Assembly (NCBI RefSeq): GCF_002563715.1
Contig: NZ_PDJJ01000001.1
Coordinates: 3,472,001-3,536,000, forward strand
Source of the DNA: Isoptericola jiangsuensis
GTDB lineage: Bacteria > Actinomycetota > Actinomycetes > Actinomycetales > Cellulomonadaceae
DNA: 64,000 nt
Direction of reading: 5' to 3'
Shown: piece after piece, positions 13,759-55,386 of the stretch
Numbering within the stretch: position 1 is the stretch's first letter
Layout of the letters: each line of letters begins with the position of its first letter
Notes under the pieces: model-generated
What the model was told of the DNA's origin: nothing
Database searches by the model: none
The model's input: the letters and a program-made list of their open reading frames with translations, nothing else
Position numbers and translations under genes: made by a program

Positions 13759-14615
13759 CGCCGCCGGCGTCCGCCCGTGCGCTGCCCGAGCAGGACGCCA
13801 CCGAGCACGAGCGCGGCCCCGACGGCCTGCCGCGGACCGAAGGCCTCCCCCACGAGGAGGGTGCCGAGGACGACGCCGGTGACGGGGTTGAGCAGCCCGA
13901 CGAGTCCGACGGTGCCGGCGGGCAGGCGGCGCAGGCCGCTGAACCAGGCGAGGAACGCGACCGCGGTCGCGACGACGGCGACGTACGCGAACCCGCCGAT
14001 CGCGGCGCCGTCGACCGGGGGCGGGCCGCCCTCGACGACGAGCGCCACGGGCAGCAGGAGCAGTCCGCCGGCGGTGAGCTGCCAGGCGGTGACCGCGACC
14101 ATGGGCTCCGCGGGGGCCCACCGCTTGGTGAGGACGAAGCCGACGGAGGACATGAGCATGGCGGCGACGGACGCGAGGACGCCGACGAGCGGGACGTCCG
14201 CGCCGCCGTCGGCGACGAGAACGACGACGCCCGCCATGCCGACGACGGCCCCGGCGGCTCCCCACCGGGTGGGTCGCTCGCCGAGCAGGGGCCAGGCGAG
14301 CAGGAGCAGCACGAGGGCGGAGGCCGCCATGACGGTCGAGGCGACGGACGACGGCAGCAGCGTCGCGGCGACGTAGACGAGGACGAAGAACGCCCCGACG
14401 TTGAGCGTGCCGAGCACGAGGGAGCGCCACCACCAGTCGCGACGCGGGAGGCGGCGGGCGACGGCGAGCAGCAGGAGCCCGGCGGGCAGGGCGCGGAGCG
14501 CGGCGCCCCACAGGGGCTGGTCGGGCGGCAGGAGCTGCCGGGTGACGACGTAGGTGGATCCCCAGGCGATCGGGGCGACCGCGGTGACGGCCACCCACTT
14601 CCAGTTCGCTTCCAT
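13680..14615 (-). CDS. DMT superfamily (EamA) permease
   Basis: The 311-residue protein has ten hydrophobic segments arranged as two five-helix EamA repeats, with the repeat signatures 'WGSTYVVTRQLLP' at the start and 'PVTGVVLGTLLVGEAFGPRQAVGAALVLGGVLLG' at the end. Such carriers usually export metabolites or drugs. It ends in a basic Arg/Ala tail. The gene starts 39 bp from a divergently transcribed MarR regulator, and the operator palindromes between them overlap its ATG, so it is very probably the regulator's target. Confidence 0.85.
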   Translation of the reverse strand: MEANWKWVAVTAVAPIAWGSTYVVTRQLLPPDQPLWGAALRALPAGLLLLAVARRLPRRDWWWRSLVLGTLNVGAFFVLVYVAATLLPSSVASTVMAASALVLLLLAWPLLGERPTRWGAAGAVVGMAGVVVLVADGGADVPLVGVLASVAAMLMSSVGFVLTKRWAPAEPMVAVTAWQLTAGGLLLLPVALVVEGGPPPVDGAAIGGFAYVAVVATAVAFLAWFSGLRRLPAGTVGLVGLLNPVTGVVLGTLLVGEAFGPRQAVGAALVLGGVLLGQRTGGRRRRQAPAGPAHAASRATAAASRASARLP

Positions 14616-22876: not shown

Positions 22877-23995
22877 ATGCGCGTCGTCGTCGTGGGAGCC
22901 ACCGGGAACGTCGGGACCTCGATCCTGAGAGCGCTCGTCGACGAACCCGCCGTCACGTCGATCGTCGGCGTCGCCCGCCGCGTGCCGCGCGCCGACGGCA
23001 CCAGCACCGTCACCCCGCCGTTCGACGCCCCCGAGTGGGTGCGCGCCGACCTCGCCGACCCCGACACCCGCGACGCCCGCCTCGACGAGGCCCTCGCCGG
23101 CGCCGACGCCGTCATCCACCTCGTGTGGGCCATCCAGCCCGCCCGCAAGCCCGACGTGCTGCACGACCTCAACGTCGGCGGCGCCCGCGCCGTCACCGAC
23201 GCCGTCGTCCGCAACCGCGTCCCGCACCTGATCTTCATGTCCGCGTCCGGCGTCTACTCCCCCGGCCCCGCCGACGGGCACGCCATCGACGAGTCGTGGC
23301 CCACCGACGGCGTCCCCGGCTCCCCCTACGCCCGCGACAAGGCCGAGGTCGAGGCCCACCTCGACGACGTCGAGCAGCGGGAGCCCTGGCTCACCGTCAC
23401 CCGGATGCGCCCCGCCATCATGCTGCAGCGTGAGGCCGGCGCCGAGATCGGCCGGTACTTCCTCGGCCCCGTCGGCCGCATCGGTCTGAAGGTCGCCGCC
23501 GGACCCCTCGGCCACGCCGTCGGGGGCCTCCTGCGCGGCTGGAACGGCGAGCCCGAACCCGCCGAGCAGCCCCGCTTCCCCCTCGTGCCGTTCCCCGAGG
23601 GCGTCCGCCTCCAGGTGCTGCACCCCGACGACACCGCCCGCGCCGTGCGCACCGCCGTCGTCGGCCGCCACGGCGGCGCGTTCAACCTCGCACCCGACGG
23701 TGCCCTCACCGGCCAGGACCTCGCCGACCTGCTCGCCGACGGCCGGCGCGTCCCGGTCCCGCTGTCGCTCGCCCGCACGGGCCTCAAGGTCGCGTCCGCG
23801 GTCCGCCTCGTGCCCATCGACCCCGGCTGGCTGGAGATGGCCGCCGCCGACGTCGTCATGGACTCCACCCGCGCCCGCACCGTCCTGCGCTGGTCCCCGA
23901 CCCGCCCCCAGACCGACGTGCTGAACGAGGTCCTCGACGGCGTCCTCGACGGCACCACCGGCGACACCCCGCCGCTGTCCACGAAGGGCAGGTAG
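22877..23995 (+). CDS. NAD-dependent epimerase/dehydratase-like extended SDR
   Basis: The 372-residue protein starts with the SDR cofactor motif 'MRVVVVGATGNVGTSILRAL' (GxTGxxG). It contains 'FMSASGVYSPG', 'SPYARDKAEVEAHL' with the Tyr-x3-Lys pair (YARDK), and a substrate-side half with 'DDTARAV'. This is the atypical/extended SDR class used on nucleotide sugars or as a redox sensor; the substrate is unknown. The gene ends at the edge of repeat locus A, which forms its 3' flank. Confidence 0.82.
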   Translation: MRVVVVGATGNVGTSILRALVDEPAVTSIVGVARRVPRADGTSTVTPPFDAPEWVRADLADPDTRDARLDEALAGADAVIHLVWAIQPARKPDVLHDLNVGGARAVTDAVVRNRVPHLIFMSASGVYSPGPADGHAIDESWPTDGVPGSPYARDKAEVEAHLDDVEQREPWLTVTRMRPAIMLQREAGAEIGRYFLGPVGRIGLKVAAGPLGHAVGGLLRGWNGEPEPAEQPRFPLVPFPEGVRLQVLHPDDTARAVRTAVVGRHGGAFNLAPDGALTGQDLADLLADGRRVPVPLSLARTGLKVASAVRLVPIDPGWLEMAAADVVMDSTRARTVLRWSPTRPQTDVLNEVLDGVLDGTTGDTPPLSTKGR

Positions 23996-23997
23996 CC

Positions 23998-24050
23998 GAG
24001 TCAGCGCAGGGCCACGCGAGTCAGCGCAGGGCCACGCGAGTCAGCGCAGG
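23998..24050 (-). repeat. 20-bp repeat array, three units (locus A, left)
   Basis: Units at 23998-24017 and 24018-24037 are identical (GAGTCAGCGCAGGGCCACGC); a third partial unit starts at 24038. Read on the minus strand the unit is TGCGCTGACTCGC plus a spacer, the same family as the forward array at 24331. The 20-bp period excludes a coding repeat. Confidence 0.85.
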
Positions 24051-24053
24051 GTC

Positions 24054-24154
24054 GTCCGGTGTCGGGACGAGGCGCGCACGGTCGCGTTCACGGGCCCCAG
24101 GGGGCCCTCCACTTCGGGTCTGACGACCGTGCGCGCCTCGTCCCGACCCCGGAC
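24054..24154 (+). repeat. Long hairpin element A1 with conserved 34-nt core
   Basis: A perfect 24-bp stem (24061-24084 with 24124-24147) is extended by one mismatch and 6 more pairs (24054-24059 with 24149-24154). The 39-nt loop 24085-24123 begins with the 34-nt core shared by all four elements. The core itself has a small stem GGGCCCC/GGGGCCC. The element lies 59 nt after the epimerase-like gene's stop codon, core in sense orientation. Confidence 0.9.
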
Positions 24155-24330
24155 TTTCCTCACCAGGCGTCTCGCGTGCGTCCGACGACCTCGGCGATCG
24201 TTCTTGGGCCGCGCGCTCAAGCCTCGCCGGACGTCCAGGGCCGCGCCGGGCACCCGGCCTCGTGAGCGACGTGGTCGTCGCCGGCTCGCGGGCCGTCCCG
24301 TCGTGTCGCGCCGTGCCGACGGCACGACGC
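24155..24330. other. Non-coding spacer inside repeat locus A
   Basis: No supported gene, promoter or repeat is visible here. The open frames that cross it are in shadow frames and have no ribosome site. Confidence 0.5.
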
Positions 24331-24490
24331 TGCGCTGAGTCGCGGCAACCTGCGCTGAGTCACGCGGAATCGCGCTGGGTCGCGGAGACCTGCGCTGAGT
24401 GGCGGAACCTTGCGCTGACTCGCGGGCAGTTGCGCTGAGTCGCGGGAGGTTGCGCTGAGTGGCGGGAGGTTGCGCTGACTCGCGTCGGGA
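24331..24490 (+). repeat. 20-bp tandem array, eight units (locus A, centre)
   Basis: Eight units with an exact 20-bp period start at 24331, 24351, 24371, 24391, 24411, 24431, 24451 and 24471. The conserved part is TGCGCTGA(G/C)TCGCGG, with variable spacers such as CAACC, AGACC and AGGT. The period equals about two helical turns, as for protein-binding iterons. Too short and too close-packed for a CRISPR array. Confidence 0.88.
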
Positions 24491-24509
24491 CGGGACGACG
24501 GAGCCGGGG

Positions 24510-24594
24510 GTCGGGGTGGCCGGGCACGGTCGTCCACCCCGAAGTGGAGGGCCCCCTGGGGCCCGTGAACGCGACCGTGCCCGGCCACCCCGAC
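24510..24594 (-). repeat. Long hairpin element A2, inverted relative to A1
   Basis: A perfect 23-bp stem (24510-24532 with 24572-24594) encloses a 39-nt loop (24533-24571) carrying the reverse complement of the same 34-nt core. The arm sequence (GTCGGGGTGGCC...) differs from A1's, yet is fully complementary. It is sense-oriented with respect to the convergent osmC gene that ends at 24663. Confidence 0.9.
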
Positions 24595-24626
24595 ACCCGT
24601 CGAGCGCGACCCCCGGCGAGCGCGAC

Positions 24627-24666
24627 GAACGCTGACTCGCGCGCGGGAACGCTGAGTCGCGCTCAG
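24627..24666 (+). repeat. 20-bp repeat, two units (locus A, right)
   Basis: GAACGCTGACTCGCG and GAACGCTGAGTCGCG lie exactly 20 bp apart and run into the stop codon of osmC. Same family as the central array, with GAA instead of TGC at the front. Confidence 0.75.
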
Positions 24667-25106
24667 CCCTCCCAGGTGACGTCGAGCGTGATCTCGCCGA
24701 CGCCGGTGAGGGCCTTGGACACGGGGCAGCCGGCCTTCGCGGCGTCGGCCGCGGTGCGGAACGCCGCCTCGTCGACACCGGAGGCGTAGCCGCGGACGGT
24801 GAGGGCGATGGTGGTGATCTGCGGGGCGCCGGACGAGTCGGCACCGAGGGTGACGTCGGCGGTCACCTCGACCTGCTCGGGGGTGCCACCGACCTTGCCG
24901 AGCTCGCCGGAGAACGCCATGGCGTAGCACGACGAGTGCGCGGCGGCGATGAGCTCCTCCGGGCTGGTGACGCCCTCCGCCTCGTCGGCGGCGCGGCGCG
25001 GGAACGACACGTCGAAGGTGCCGGTGCCGGAGCTGGTGAGCTCGAGCTGGCCGGAGCCTTCCATGAGGGTGCCGTTCCAGGCGGTGCGGGCGGTACGGAC
25101 GGGCAT
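24663..25106 (-). CDS. OsmC family peroxiredoxin
   Basis: The 147-residue protein matches the OsmC/Ohr superfamily, close to OsmC proper: 'TARTAWNGTLMEGSGQLEL' at the start, the first catalytic Cys in 'IAAAHSSCYAMAFSGEL', and the second in 'AAKAGCPVSKALTG'. These thiol peroxidases reduce organic hydroperoxides in the cytoplasm. AAGGAG lies 6 nt before the ATG. The 3' end adjoins repeat locus A. Confidence 0.92.
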   Translation of the reverse strand: MPVRTARTAWNGTLMEGSGQLELTSSGTGTFDVSFPRRAADEAEGVTSPEELIAAAHSSCYAMAFSGELGKVGGTPEQVEVTADVTLGADSSGAPQITTIALTVRGYASGVDEAAFRTAADAAKAGCPVSKALTGVGEITLDVTWEG

Positions 25107-33870: not shown

Positions 33871-35766
33871 ATGCCCGACGCGACGGACCGTCACGGGACG
33901 CCGCCGGTGGTGCGGCGCGCACCGCACCGCCGCCGTCGCCGCGCCCTCGGCTGGCTGCTCGTCGCGATCCTCGTCGTGGCGGTCGGCGTCGCCGTGTGCG
34001 CCGTGCTGATCGTGCGCGACGCCTTCACCGCACGGGACGCGCTCGACGAGGCCGCCGCGGCCGTCCCCGCCGTCGAGCAGGCCGTCCGCGACGGCATGAC
34101 GGTCCGCGACCCCGACGCCGCGCCGCTCACCGGGACACCGGCCCTGCTCGACCTCCAGCGGTCCACCCAGACGGCTCGCGAGGCGACCGACGGCTGGTTG
34201 TGGGCGGCGGCAGCGCACCTGCCGCTCGTCGGGGAGTCCGTCGGCGCCGCGACGACGGTCTCCGCCGTGATCGACGACGTCGCCGACGTGGCCCTGCCCG
34301 CCCTGGCGGAGACGGTCGACGCGGCGACCCGGACCGGGCGGACCGAGCAGGGCGGCCTCGACCTCGCCCCGCTGTCGGCGGTGGCGGGCGACGTCACCGC
34401 GGCGCGGGAGATGATCGCCGCGTCGGGCGCGGACCTCGCCGCGATCGACACCGCGCACATCCAGGACCGGTTCGCCGAGCCCGTGCAGCTCCTCGACGCC
34501 CAGCTCACCGAGCTGGACGTGCTCCTCGCCACCGCCGAGCGCGCGACCGTCCTGCTCCCGGCGCTGCTCGGCGCCGACGGGCCCCGCCGCTACGTGCTGC
34601 TGGGGCTGTCCAACGCGGAGCTGCGCGCCGGGGGCGGCATCCCGGGCGCTCTCACCGAGCTCCGCGTCGACGACGGCTCGCTCGGCGTCGGCGCACAGGC
34701 GTCGACCGGCGCGTTCGGGCCGTACGCGGAACCGGTGCTGCCGCTCGACCCGGAGGACGAGGCGGCCTACTCCGCACGCCTCGGCCGCTTCGTCCAGGAC
34801 GTCACGCTCACGCCGGACTTCGCGACGACCGGGCCGCTGGTGGCCGAGATGTGGCAACGGTCCCGCGGCGAGGAGGTCGACGGGGTGCTGGCGACGGACC
34901 CGGTCGCGCTGTCCGCGCTGCTGGAGGTCACCGGTCCCGTCGAGATCGACCTGCCGCCCGGGCTCGCGACCGCGCTCGGCACCGGCACGCTGGTCGTCGA
35001 GTCGTCGACCGTCGTGGACCTGCTGCTGCGCCGCACCTACGACGTGCTGGACCCCGGGCTCGCGGACCGGTTCTTCGCCGTCGTCGCGGCCGCCGTGTTC
35101 GACGAGCTGACGGCGGACGACGTCTCCCCGGCCGCCCTGCTGCCCGCCCTGGAGCGGGTGTCGCACGACCACCGGCTGCTCGTCTGGTCCGCGCGCCCCG
35201 ACGAGCAGGCCCTGCTCGCCGGCACCCTCGTCGCGGGGACGTTCGCCGACGACCGCGCGCGGGACGCCGTCGGGGTGTTCCTCGACGACCTCGTGGTGGG
35301 CAAGCTCAGCGCCTACCTCGACGTGCAGGTCGGCCTCGGGGCGTCGGCGTGCACCGACGCCGTCGGACGCGAGGACACGGTCGAGGTCACGCTGACGAAC
35401 CGGTTGGACGAGGGCACGGCGCAGGACCTGCCGTCGTACGTCGCCGGCCCCGAGGGCGACCCGGACCGGGGCCGCATGCTGCTCACCGTGTCGGCGTACG
35501 GACCCCGCGACGGCGGCCTGCCGCGGCTGGCCCGGGACGGCGGCACGGTCGGGGGCGACACCCTCGAGGTGCACGGTCGCCAGCGGGTCGCGATCACCGT
35601 CGACCTGCGGCCCGGGGAGTCCACGGTGGTCGCCGTCACGGTGCCCGCCACGGCCGCGGGCGCACGCGGGGAGGGCTCCGCGGCGCCGGGCACGCTGGAG
35701 GTCTGGACGACGCCTACCGTCTCCGCCCCGGGACTGCACGTGCTCGACGTCCCGCGCTGCGGGTGA
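33871..35766 (+). CDS. DUF4012 domain membrane-anchored protein
   Basis: The 631-residue protein has a basic N-terminus (RRAPHRRRRRAL), one transmembrane helix (~27-50) and a long extracellular region with the DUF4012 core: 'YVLLGLSNAELRAGGGIPGALTELRVDDG', 'VDGVLATDPVALSALLEVTGPVEID' and 'FFAVVAAAVFDELTADDVSPAALLPALERVSHDHRLLVWS'. The family is widespread in actinobacteria next to surface-polysaccharide genes; its biochemical role is not known. The downstream LPXTG protein gene follows after 111 bp, so both may shape the cell surface. Confidence 0.8.
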   Translation: MPDATDRHGTPPVVRRAPHRRRRRALGWLLVAILVVAVGVAVCAVLIVRDAFTARDALDEAAAAVPAVEQAVRDGMTVRDPDAAPLTGTPALLDLQRSTQTAREATDGWLWAAAAHLPLVGESVGAATTVSAVIDDVADVALPALAETVDAATRTGRTEQGGLDLAPLSAVAGDVTAAREMIAASGADLAAIDTAHIQDRFAEPVQLLDAQLTELDVLLATAERATVLLPALLGADGPRRYVLLGLSNAELRAGGGIPGALTELRVDDGSLGVGAQASTGAFGPYAEPVLPLDPEDEAAYSARLGRFVQDVTLTPDFATTGPLVAEMWQRSRGEEVDGVLATDPVALSALLEVTGPVEIDLPPGLATALGTGTLVVESSTVVDLLLRRTYDVLDPGLADRFFAVVAAAVFDELTADDVSPAALLPALERVSHDHRLLVWSARPDEQALLAGTLVAGTFADDRARDAVGVFLDDLVVGKLSAYLDVQVGLGASACTDAVGREDTVEVTLTNRLDEGTAQDLPSYVAGPEGDPDRGRMLLTVSAYGPRDGGLPRLARDGGTVGGDTLEVHGRQRVAITVDLRPGESTVVAVTVPATAAGARGEGSAAPGTLEVWTTPTVSAPGLHVLDVPRCG

Positions 35767-49979: not shown

Positions 49980-50657
49980 GTGGACGACACCGTCGTGCTC
50001 TCCGCCCCCCTCTTCTCGGACATGGAGAGCGAGGAGTCCAAGGCGCTCTTCGACTCCATGGTTCCCGTGGAGCTGAGCCGCGGGGACGTCCTGTTCCGCG
50101 AGGGCGAACCGGGCGACCGTCTCTACGTCATCGCGCAGGGCAAGATCAAGCTCGGACGCCGGTCCAGCGACGGCCGGGAGAACCTGCTGTCCATCCTCGG
50201 CCCCGGCGAGATGTTCGGCGAGCTCTCCCTCTTCGACCCCGGCCCCCGCACCGCCACCGCCTCCTCGGTGTCCGAGGCGCTCATCTACGAGCTCCGCCAC
50301 CAGGCCCTCGTGCAGTGGATCGCGCAGCACCCCAGCGTCGCGACGACCCTGCTCGGTGCGCTGGCCCGCCGCCTGCGCCGCACCAACGAGACCCTCGCCG
50401 ACCTCGTCTTCTCCGACGTCCCCGGCCGCGTCGCCAAGGCCCTCCTGGACCTGTCCAACCGGTTCGGCGAGACCAACGACGAGGGCGTCCGCGTCGCCCA
50501 CGACCTCACGCAGGAAGAGCTCGCCCAGCTCGTCGGCGCCTCCCGCGAGACCGTCAACAAGGCCCTGGCCGACTTCGCCACCCGCGGCTGGGTCCGCCGC
50601 GAGGGCCGCGCCGTCGTCCTGCTGGACCTCGACCGCCTGGAGCGCCGCGCCCGCTGA
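49980..50657 (+). CDS. crp: Crp/Fnr family transcriptional regulator
   Basis: The 225-residue protein has a cyclic-nucleotide-binding domain (~15-120: '[66 protein letters not shown]', with the FGELSL/PRTATA phosphate-binding cassette) and a winged HTH ('[40 protein letters not shown]'). It corresponds to the actinobacterial cAMP receptor protein (Rv3676). AGGA lies 5 nt before the GTG at 49980; a GTG at 49968 is less well placed. Its 3' end borders repeat locus B. Confidence 0.94.
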
Positions 50658-50681: not shown

Positions 50682-50782
50682 GGTGACGGGGCGAGGTCCT
50701 GCCGCACGATCGCGTTCACGGGCCCCAGGGGGCCCTCCACTTCGGGGATGACGACCGTGCGGCAGGACCTCGCCCCGTCACC
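50682..50782 (+). repeat. Long hairpin element B1 with conserved 34-nt core
   Basis: A perfect 27-bp stem (50682-50708 with 50756-50782), one A/C mismatch and three more pairs enclose a 39-nt loop (50713-50751) that begins with the same 34-nt core as A1. The arm (GGTGACGGGGCGAGGTCCTG...) is unrelated to A1's except for the 4-6 bp next to the loop. It lies 24 nt after the crp stop codon in sense orientation. Confidence 0.9.
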
Positions 50783-50816
50783 TTTGCCGTCCCGTCGCGT
50801 CACGCTCGTCGCACGC

Positions 50817-50876
50817 GAGTCAGCGCACCCCCACGCCAGTCAGCGCACCTCCACGCCAGTCAGCGCACACCGACGC
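50817..50876 (-). repeat. 20-bp repeat array, three units (locus B)
   Basis: Units GAGTCAGCGCACCCCCACGC (50817-50836), CAGTCAGCGCACCTCCACGC (50837-50856) and CAGTCAGCGCACACCGACGC (50857-50876). The minus-strand form TGCGCTGACTCGC is the same family as in locus A. Confidence 0.85.
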
Positions 50877-50950
50877 GAGGCGACGCGGGCTCCAAGTCGA
50901 CGGCGCCCGCCCGATGCGCCGGGCCAACCGCGACGCGAGCCGACGACGGA

Positions 50951-51049
50951 GCGGGGTGGCGGCGTCGTGGGCGCGGCCGTCTCCTGCCCGAAGTGGAGGG
51001 CCCCCTGGGGCCCGTGAACGCGGCCGCGCGCACGACGCCGCCACCCCGC
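50951..51049 (-). repeat. Long hairpin element B2, inverted relative to B1
   Basis: A 29-bp stem with one G/G mismatch (50951-50979 with 51021-51049) encloses a 41-nt loop (50980-51020) with the reverse complement of the 34-nt core. Arms again differ from the other copies but pair with each other. It is sense-oriented for the convergent ridA gene. Confidence 0.9.
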
Positions 51050-51121
51050 GGGACGTAAGCCGCACGCCCACCCCGCGGGACGTAAGCCGCACGGCCACCC
51101 CGCGGAACGCAAGCCCACGAC
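51041..51121. repeat. 27-bp direct repeat, three units
   Basis: Units start at 51041, 51068 and 51095 with CCACCCCGCGG(G/A)ACG(T/C)AAGC; the first two differ at a single base. The first nine bases of each unit equal the outer end of the B2 right arm, so the array looks like repeated duplication of the arm end and its flank. Confidence 0.85.
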
Positions 51122-51197: not shown

Positions 51198-51674
51198 TCA
51201 GGCAGGGAGCTCCGCGATGATCTCGACCTCGACGGGGGCGTCCAGCGGAAGGACCGCGACGCCGACGGCGGAGCGGGCGTGGGTGCCCGCGTCGCCGAAG
51301 ATCTCGCCGAGGACGGTGCTGGCGCCGTTGAGGACGCCGGGCTGGCCCGTGAACGACGGGTCGGACGCGACGAAGCCCGTCACCTTGACGATGCGGACGC
51401 CCTCCAGGGTGCCCGCGACGCTGCGGACGGCCGCGAGGGCGTTGAGCGCGCAGGTGCGTGCCAGGTCCGCCGCCGTGGCGGGGTCGACGAGGCCGTCGCC
51501 GTCACCGACCTTGCCGGTGACGGGCAGCGCGCCGTCGACGAACGGGAGCTGTCCGGCCGTGTAGACGTGGGCGCCGGACCGGACGGCCGGCTGGTACGCC
51601 GCGACGGGCGCGGCGACGGCGGGCAGGGTGATGCCGAGCTCGGCGAGTCGTGCGTCGACGCTCATGCCGCTCAT
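51198..51674 (-). CDS. RidA family protein
   Basis: The 158-residue protein has the RidA/YjgF fold marks: 'YQPAVRSGAHVYTAGQLPFVDG', 'LARTCALNALAAVRSVAGTLEGVRIVKVTGFVASDPSFTGQPGVLNGAS' and 'ARSAVGVAVLPLDAPVEVEIIAEL' with the conserved Arg and Glu. Canonical members deaminate reactive enamines from PLP enzymes. The ATG at 51674 overlaps the stop of the DUF4177 gene (ATGA); a second ATG at 51665 is possible. Homologue of Rv3678c by position. Confidence 0.88.
   Translation of the reverse strand: MSGMSVDARLAELGITLPAVAAPVAAYQPAVRSGAHVYTAGQLPFVDGALPVTGKVGDGDGLVDPATAADLARTCALNALAAVRSVAGTLEGVRIVKVTGFVASDPSFTGQPGVLNGASTVLGEIFGDAGTHARSAVGVAVLPLDAPVEVEIIAELPA

Positions 51675-55309: not shown

Positions 55310-55386
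<77 letters not shown>

Follow-up and report, generated by a model that had tools for sequence, protein, structure and literature searches.

The window analysed here, a stretch of 64,000 nt (64 kb) of the Isoptericola jiangsuensis genome, contains two convergent intergenic regions (loci A and B) with two long hairpins each, and the four hairpins share one core sequence on arms that are unlike among the four, yet paired. This raises the question of how the arms of such a hairpin stay complementary, the more general form of which (how stems keep their pairing) is put in the available text of PMC8794818, and the question of what the hairpin does at these positions.

Four hairpins with a common core

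The hairpins of the window, the genes next to them and the adjoining repeats are as follows.

24054-24154, plus strand, hairpin A1: arms 24054-24084 and 24124-24154, core/loop 24085-24123, sense to the upstream epimerase-like gene
24505-24599, minus strand, hairpin A2: arms 24505-24532 and 24572-24599, core/loop 24533-24571, sense to the OsmC-like gene
50682-50782, plus strand, hairpin B1: arms 50682-50712 and 50752-50782, core/loop 50713-50751, directly 3' of the Crp-family gene
50951-51049, minus strand, hairpin B2: arms 50951-50979 and 51021-51049, core/loop 50980-51020, 3' of the YjgF/RidA-like gene
22877-23995, plus strand, NAD-dependent epimerase/dehydratase-like gene (PF01370), upstream of A1
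24663-25064, minus strand, OsmC-family gene (domain match), upstream of A2
49980-50657, plus strand, Crp/Fnr-family regulator gene (cNMP-binding and Crp HTH domains), upstream of B1
51198-51674, minus strand, YjgF/endoribonuclease L-PSP-like gene, which we take to be RidA, upstream of B2
23997-24056, plus strand, 20-bp repeats of the CGAGTCAGCGCAGGGCCACG type, adjoining A1
24331-24484, minus strand, 20-bp-spaced repeats of the CGCGAGTCAGCGC type, between A1 and A2
50812-50886, plus strand, 20-bp repeats between B1 and B2

The full-length arms have one mismatch per hairpin: those of A1 and B1 are 31 nt long and 97% complementary, those of A2 are 28 nt long and 96% complementary, all with a spacing of 39 nt, and those of B2 are 29 nt long and 97% complementary with a spacing of 41 nt. 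The perfectly paired runs are therefore shorter than the whole arms. All four hairpins carry the same 33-nt core GTTCACGGGCCCCAGGGGGCCCTCCACTTCGGG (34 nt with the preceding C), and as the cores of A2 and B2 are on the minus strand, the cores within each pair face one another.

The predicted RNA folds of the four range from -82.5 to -87.0 kcal/mol (z from -7.2 to -10.6), and none of 200 shuffles of each hairpin folded as stably. A 6-bp inner helix is absent from the minimum-energy fold of A1 and present in the A1 centroid and in the other three folds. The four are the only strong covariance-model matches in the window, scoring 83.6-101.7 bits with model R1 and 81.6-98.5 bits with model R2; the weak R1 matches in the window are the opposite strands of A1 and A2 and a near-chance match at 14163-14213 (E = 0.17). 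These hairpins are real, far beyond chance, and they are members of a large family. Another hairpin, at window position 34244, has no core and was set aside. At the gathering score, the only Rfam match in the window is a tRNA (55310-55383), and no Rfam family matches the hairpins; seven weak matches at locus A are all below the gathering score, the best being to a microRNA model (31.6 bits, with 79 required).

Arrays of ~20-bp repeats lie beside many hairpins, also at loci L089, L092, L095, L099 and L105, and one more is found at window position 24629-24661. The repeat motif is species-specific, with CGCGAGTCAGCGC in I. jiangsuensis and CGAGGTAGTAGCGC or CGAGGTAGCGC in relatives. It has 15 matches in the window versus 2.5 expected, and an exact CGCGASTCAGCG repeat occurs within ~300 nt of 29 of the 54 I. 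jiangsuensis copies read. A separate set of three 27-bp tandem repeats (CCACCCCGCGGGACGTAAGCCGCACGC type, window 51041-51121) starts within the outer end of B2.

Copy number and distribution

A search of the I. jiangsuensis genome with the core pattern, allowing up to three mismatches, identified 29 sites, while the reversed control identified none. Complementary arms flank all 29 sites as judged by eye, with no single constant arm sequence and no core without arms, and the covarying hairpin proposed in the initial annotation held in this respect; coreless hairpins with arms do occur in relatives. The core is less uniform than the invariant sequence described there, being exact in 18 of the 29 sites, and across copies the inner helix shows compensated base-pair changes. 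Covariance model R1 raised the I. jiangsuensis total to 57 copies.

All 18 genomes of our genus sample (Isoptericola with Krasilnikoviella flava) harbor the element, in 2 to 57 copies each at E <= 1e-5, the highest counts being 57, 57 and 27. At the family level, matches were found in 14 of 61 genomes and in 6 of 25 genera, and the element is also present in Promicromonospora, Puerhibacterium, Myceligenerans and Xylanimonas. The order scan gave matches in 7 of 248 genomes, six of them from the genus (I. jiangsuensis included) and one weak (E = 1.1e-4), and the scan of 396 genomes of the phylum gave only I. jiangsuensis and one weak match (E = 8.1e-4); in the order scan 19 candidates were scored per genome and 19 of the 57 I. 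jiangsuensis copies recovered, in the phylum scan 12 and 12, so that a genome whose copies are few or diverged may have been overlooked. Rescoring of loci from the pattern scan with the covariance model covered at least 118 genomic and 7 viral loci. Among the matches listed, all 60 loci from Isoptericola, Krasilnikoviella, Promicromonospora, Puerhibacterium, Myceligenerans or Xylanimonas score at least 43.6 bits each, and the other 65 score at most 25.1 bits. A wide distribution was not supported, as these scans of limited sensitivity found no convincing copy outside Promicromonosporaceae, and the element appears to be specific to this family as far as the scans reach.

A stem of set length and a structured core

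For the analysis of structure we collected 175 distinct copies, which are many, not all, of the known ones. The best-fit stem has 28-31 bp in 125 of these 175 copies and encloses the conserved core of ~39 nt. Beyond the 19-bp stem of the model, Watson-Crick pairing across the 175 copies is 91-96% at each of nine positions and then falls to 74, 61, 51 and 27%, which marks a sharp end of the stem. The bases that flank it are weakly conserved: a C precedes the stem in 117 of 175 copies and a T follows in 127 of them; this T at position +1 does not begin a T run, and there is no strong U-tract.

In the alignment of 115 copies made with model R2, 97.0% of the pairs of the outer helix are formed, with two-sided changes in 18 of its 19 pairs, and 99.4% of the pairs of the 6-bp inner helix of the core are formed; since this alignment was fitted to the model and contains many related sequences, its pair counts are not independent events. 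Among the same 115 copies, pair 32-40 of the inner helix is CG in 63 and GC in 52 without exception, pair 23-48 is UA in 88, CG in 26 and UG in one, and pair 46-54 is CG in 100, GC in 10 and UG in one, with one copy unpaired and three gaps. Pair 46-54 crosses pairs 22-49 and 23-48, which would form a pseudoknot; in the register adopted, positions 22-23 pair with 48-49 and positions 45-46 with 54-55. An earlier register of the crossing pairs (46-55 and 47-54, alignment A3) was poor, with pairing in just 86.0% of cells. Taken from these alignments, the core carries a covarying 6-bp helix and a probable pseudoknot.

The covariation score of the 115 copies is 0.574, compared to 0.127 after shuffling (none of 500 shuffles reached the observed value) and 0.058-0.090 in slid controls, and the unfitted MAFFT alignment (alignment A1) gives 0.602 compared to 0.142 after shuffling. 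Compensated helix changes exceed shuffled controls, as in a conserved structured RNA motif. In a set of 39 copies (29 from I. jiangsuensis and 10 from relatives), two-sided changes were seen at 33 of 39 pairs. The initial annotation had placed hairpins with unlike but paired arms at these positions of the window and had concluded that the hairpin is maintained, and both the number of two-sided changes and the covariation score bear this out.

Position and orientation relative to genes

With genes predicted by a simple home-made gene caller, 158 of the 175 copies are intergenic: 101 lie between convergent genes, 26 are in tandem regions in sense orientation and 25 in tandem regions in antisense orientation, one lies between divergent genes and five have a predicted gene on one side only. 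Between convergent genes, 97 of 101 copies have a core that reads in the same direction as the nearer gene, at a median distance of 38 nt past its stop codon; the four exceptions are sense to the farther gene. The upstream stop is the closer boundary in all 26 tandem sense copies (median 39.5 nt). The 25 tandem copies antisense to both neighbours have median distances of 176 and 204 nt to them. The counts of 26 sense and 25 antisense tandem copies had suggested random orientation, an impression that was revised once distances had been measured. Seven of the 25, with a stop within 40 nt, look like real exceptions; together, the 25 antisense tandem copies and the four convergent copies sense to the farther gene mean that the sense orientation is not obligatory. 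Close pairs in I. jiangsuensis are ordered plus then minus in nine of nine cases, facing inward, each hairpin being sense to its own gene. Neither the placement at gene ends nor the sense orientation was part of the initial annotation.

Position, sense orientation and stability suggest a role at the RNA 3' end, as a terminator or in mRNA-end protection. A GC-rich hairpin soon after the stop codon, as expected for a terminator, is what these copies present, and the element resembles long GC-rich intrinsic (often bidirectional) terminators in its post-stop position, its stable stem and its placement between convergent genes, and coreless hairpins occupy the same loci in some relatives. It differs from them in the structured tip of ~39 nt, the peak of stem lengths at 28-31 bp, the copies inside genes and the lack of a clear U-tract. 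In Streptomyces, according to the part of PMC3765725 available, convergent transcripts commonly overlap, which makes strong end signals between convergent genes plausible.

Seventeen of the 175 copies lie in predicted genes (7 sense, 10 antisense), and at these sites they cannot act as terminators. By translation, six are in gcvP-like genes (three from the genus sample and three from other genera), six in a hydrolase/AMP-ligase fusion gene, which we take to be OleBC-like, and two in a glycosyltransferase gene; the remaining three are in other genes (one at L077, two at L078). The gcvP loci match the model in 5 of the 18 genus genomes, the gene name being from NCBIfam on one locus. According to Pfam matches for one member each, the fusion-gene copy sits between the alpha/beta-hydrolase and AMP-binding domains and the glycosyltransferase copy between two glycosyltransferase domains. 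The gene-internal copies examined are mostly common to several species.

Hairpins with other tips were also observed. A second, distinct core, GCTCGAATGAATCGGTCGCTNCGCTCCCTCTGCTCTCGCG (core II), tips hairpins with differing arms (L014:1127-1218, L129:3769-3866 and L366-L385) and is present in 8 of the 18 genus genomes. The sense rule was not supported for core II, as among its 10 convergent copies five are sense to the nearer gene and five antisense. A hairpin 3' of the citrate synthase gene in one genome (G014, L401) has 32 bp with mismatches and a 47-nt loop with neither core, and is possibly a third type of tip.

Evolution at fixed loci

Some loci can be followed across species. The crp locus (locus B) has at least one core in 14 of the 18 genus genomes, K. 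flava having a weak match at 52.8 bits, and its arms have diverged among species yet are still paired. As judged by eye, recognisable arms surround a tiny loop without the core in one genome at this locus (G017), plain hairpins are found in two (G007 and G009), and there is no core in another (G011). At the citrate synthase locus, which has the core in 4 of 18 genus genomes, the hairpin of genome G012 comprises 32 bp, some of them mismatched, around a 7-nt loop, and its inner end matches the usual inner arm of the element; we read this as loss of the core between kept arms. The OsmC locus (locus A) has the core in 2 of 18 genus genomes and, by eye, coreless inverted repeats in several others (G001 left out). 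The core may also be turned around. At the glycosyltransferase locus the loop is exactly inverted between matching arms (K. flava L174 versus Isoptericola sp. 4D.3 L176), and one fusion-gene copy (L037) has the core in the orientation opposite to that of the five others.

Spread of the element

Five equal-scoring copies in I. halotolerans CG 23 lie at different loci and yet are nearly identical in arms and flanks, and locus A of I. jiangsuensis resembles a pair at 3.429 Mb in both hairpins. New loci would be seeded by the copying of intergenic segments, perhaps via recombination in the ~20-bp repeats; recent duplicates would share arms and flanks and diverge later. The initial annotation had argued that copying by transposition keeps the arm sequence. 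This is right for the recent I. halotolerans copies and fails over longer times, because arms diverge later, also at the same locus between species.

MITE-type palindromic repeats are known to keep defined ends or arms. In the present element the arm sequence is free and the flanks are weakly conserved; a fixed tip on arms that are free in sequence and set in length reverses the plan known for bacterial palindromic repeats. Like Correia/NEMIS, ERIC, REP and RPE sequences, it is a short, many-copy palindromic repeat, often intergenic, and Correia hairpins can invert (PMC10969869, part available). It differs from MITE-type repeats in that conservation is confined to the tip, with ends of free sequence, and that no Y1 transposase was found. 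The Y1_Tnp domain (PF01797) is present in none of the 18 genus genomes and in 5 of 14 control genomes, so that mobilisation of the Y1 type (RAYT/IS200) is unsupported and the RAYT-type transposase that the initial annotation proposed to look for does not co-occur with the element in this sample. No clean empty/filled site was found in which to look for a target-site duplication, nor any recent empty site that would bear on the idea of arms copied from the site of insertion.

A selfish palindromic repeat of MITE, REP or RPE type without host function, for which gene ends are tolerated insertion sites, would nevertheless fit the range of 2 to 57 copies within one genus and the near-identical copies with common flanks at different loci. 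It would also fit the in-frame copies in protein genes (gcvP and linkers), since RPEs likewise sit in frame within genes, as described in the accessible part of PMC10969869. We consider this explanation rather doubtful: the orientation is strongly biased, the core evolves through compensated changes, 14 of 18 genomes keep it at the crp locus, no Y1 transposase was found in the 18 genomes, and conservation at the ends is limited to a weakly preferred C ahead of the stem and T behind it.

How the arms stay paired

Changes in the arms were counted in 31 non-overlapping best-matched pairs of copies with an arm identity of at least 0.84, the 99% point of random pairs; only this upper class was used, as pairs below 0.84 may be unrelated copies, and 7 of the 175 copies were left out. 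The 31 pairs contain 40 two-sided Watson-Crick changes, 29 one-sided changes and six two-sided broken ones. Transversions and transitions number 21 and 19 among the two-sided changes and 15 and 14 among the one-sided ones. We also counted stem mismatches on the core strand in 4,760 cells of 170 copies, leaving out five of the 175 with more than six stem mismatches, and found 30 G-T, 66 A-C and 66 other mismatches. A-C exceeds G-T in 29 of 84 clusters and the reverse holds in nine, with 46 ties (p = 0.0017), an excess that comes mainly from two genomes. Wobble pairs are thus not enriched on the core strand, and the scarcity there of G-U, a pair that RNA should tolerate, argues against RNA selection on this strand as the keeper of arm pairing; the A-C excess is the reverse of the prediction for RNA pairing on this strand.

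The double changes alone could be explained by strong selection without template switching. Compensatory evolution only, in which selection for an RNA hairpin removes mismatches, agrees with the very strong covariation, the sense orientation and the excess of two-sided over one-sided changes, and we regard it as unlikely, given the scarce wobble intermediates (A-C exceeding G-U on the sense strand) and the precise inversion of the loop, which requires an event at the DNA level. The near-equality of two-sided transversions and transitions also speaks against it, weakly, since the one-sided changes are alike.

On the strand opposite to the core the same mismatches read as an excess of G-T over A-C (29 versus 9 clusters, 46 ties, p = 0.0017), whichever the direction of the neighbouring genes. 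Such an excess would fit a DNA-level element, that is, a cruciform or single-stranded DNA site with its functional strand opposite the core, and in I. jiangsuensis the core is co-oriented with the assumed direction of replication (40:17, p = 0.003, contig G000:C1). This bias is weak in relatives (26:13 for G003:C1, where it covers 39 of 57 copies, and 15:12 for G006:C1), with replication origins assumed from contig starts and synteny. As the G-T excess comes mainly from two genomes, and as RNA is suggested both by the pseudoknot and by the gene-relative sense rule (97 of 101), we find a DNA-level element very improbable.

Template switching during replication is reported to yield perfect stems and multi-base compensatory changes (PMC8794818, available text), and to homogenise the arms of inverted repeats and invert spacers (PMC8604942, available text). 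The hairpins described here are like those shaped by template switching in all these features: the arms are homogenised, compensatory changes span several bases and a spacer is inverted. As far as the accessible parts of the two papers go, template switching was reported for RNA genes and, in yeast genes, for short spacers; here it would concern a many-copy bacterial family and an inverted loop of ~40 nt. Judging from the pattern of changes, arm complementarity is probably kept in part via DNA template switching, which would also explain the inverted core between matching arms. The initial annotation had offered either selection on the hairpin or its RNA, or a mechanism that rewrites both arms; the two need not be alternatives, and both may operate. 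With its many copies, some of them at matching loci across species, the family provides a test set for selection versus template switching in stem pairing.

Function of the element

By its sequence, a hairpin with a near-constant tip and a freely varying paired stem of 28-31 bp is a new structured element; we found no description of it in the titles and abstract openings of the open-licence papers listed. As the copies compared show, it combines a stem free in sequence and a conserved structured tip with placement at a median of ~38 nt past the stop codon and, in nearly all copies between convergent genes, an orientation in sense to the nearer gene. The explanation that we prefer, and to which we give an even chance of being correct, is that this is a Promicromonosporaceae 3'-UTR hairpin of ~100 nt, a terminator or 3' stabiliser with an RNA module at its tip, whose arms are kept by template switching together with selection. 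The hairpin would be transcribed with the upstream gene; its stem would terminate transcription or stabilise the 3' end, in some convergent pairs for both genes. The core would fold into an RNA module (inner helix and pseudoknot) bound by a putative partner. Template switching would copy one arm onto the other and may invert the loop, with selection for the hairpin acting alongside. Processing of the long stem by RNase III is possible by analogy with Correia hairpins, which are RNase III sites (PMC10969869, part available).

A bolder version of this explanation is rather unlikely in our opinion: the element would represent a 3'-UTR RNA of a new class, in which a stem of set length presents a pseudoknotted module to a dedicated protein or small molecule, with the stem sequence irrelevant and renewed by template switching. 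If this is true, dozens of unrelated genes would have their termination or mRNA lifetime decided through the module. Should the tip be an RNA module that is recognised, unrelated genes of these bacteria would have a 3'-end signal in common.
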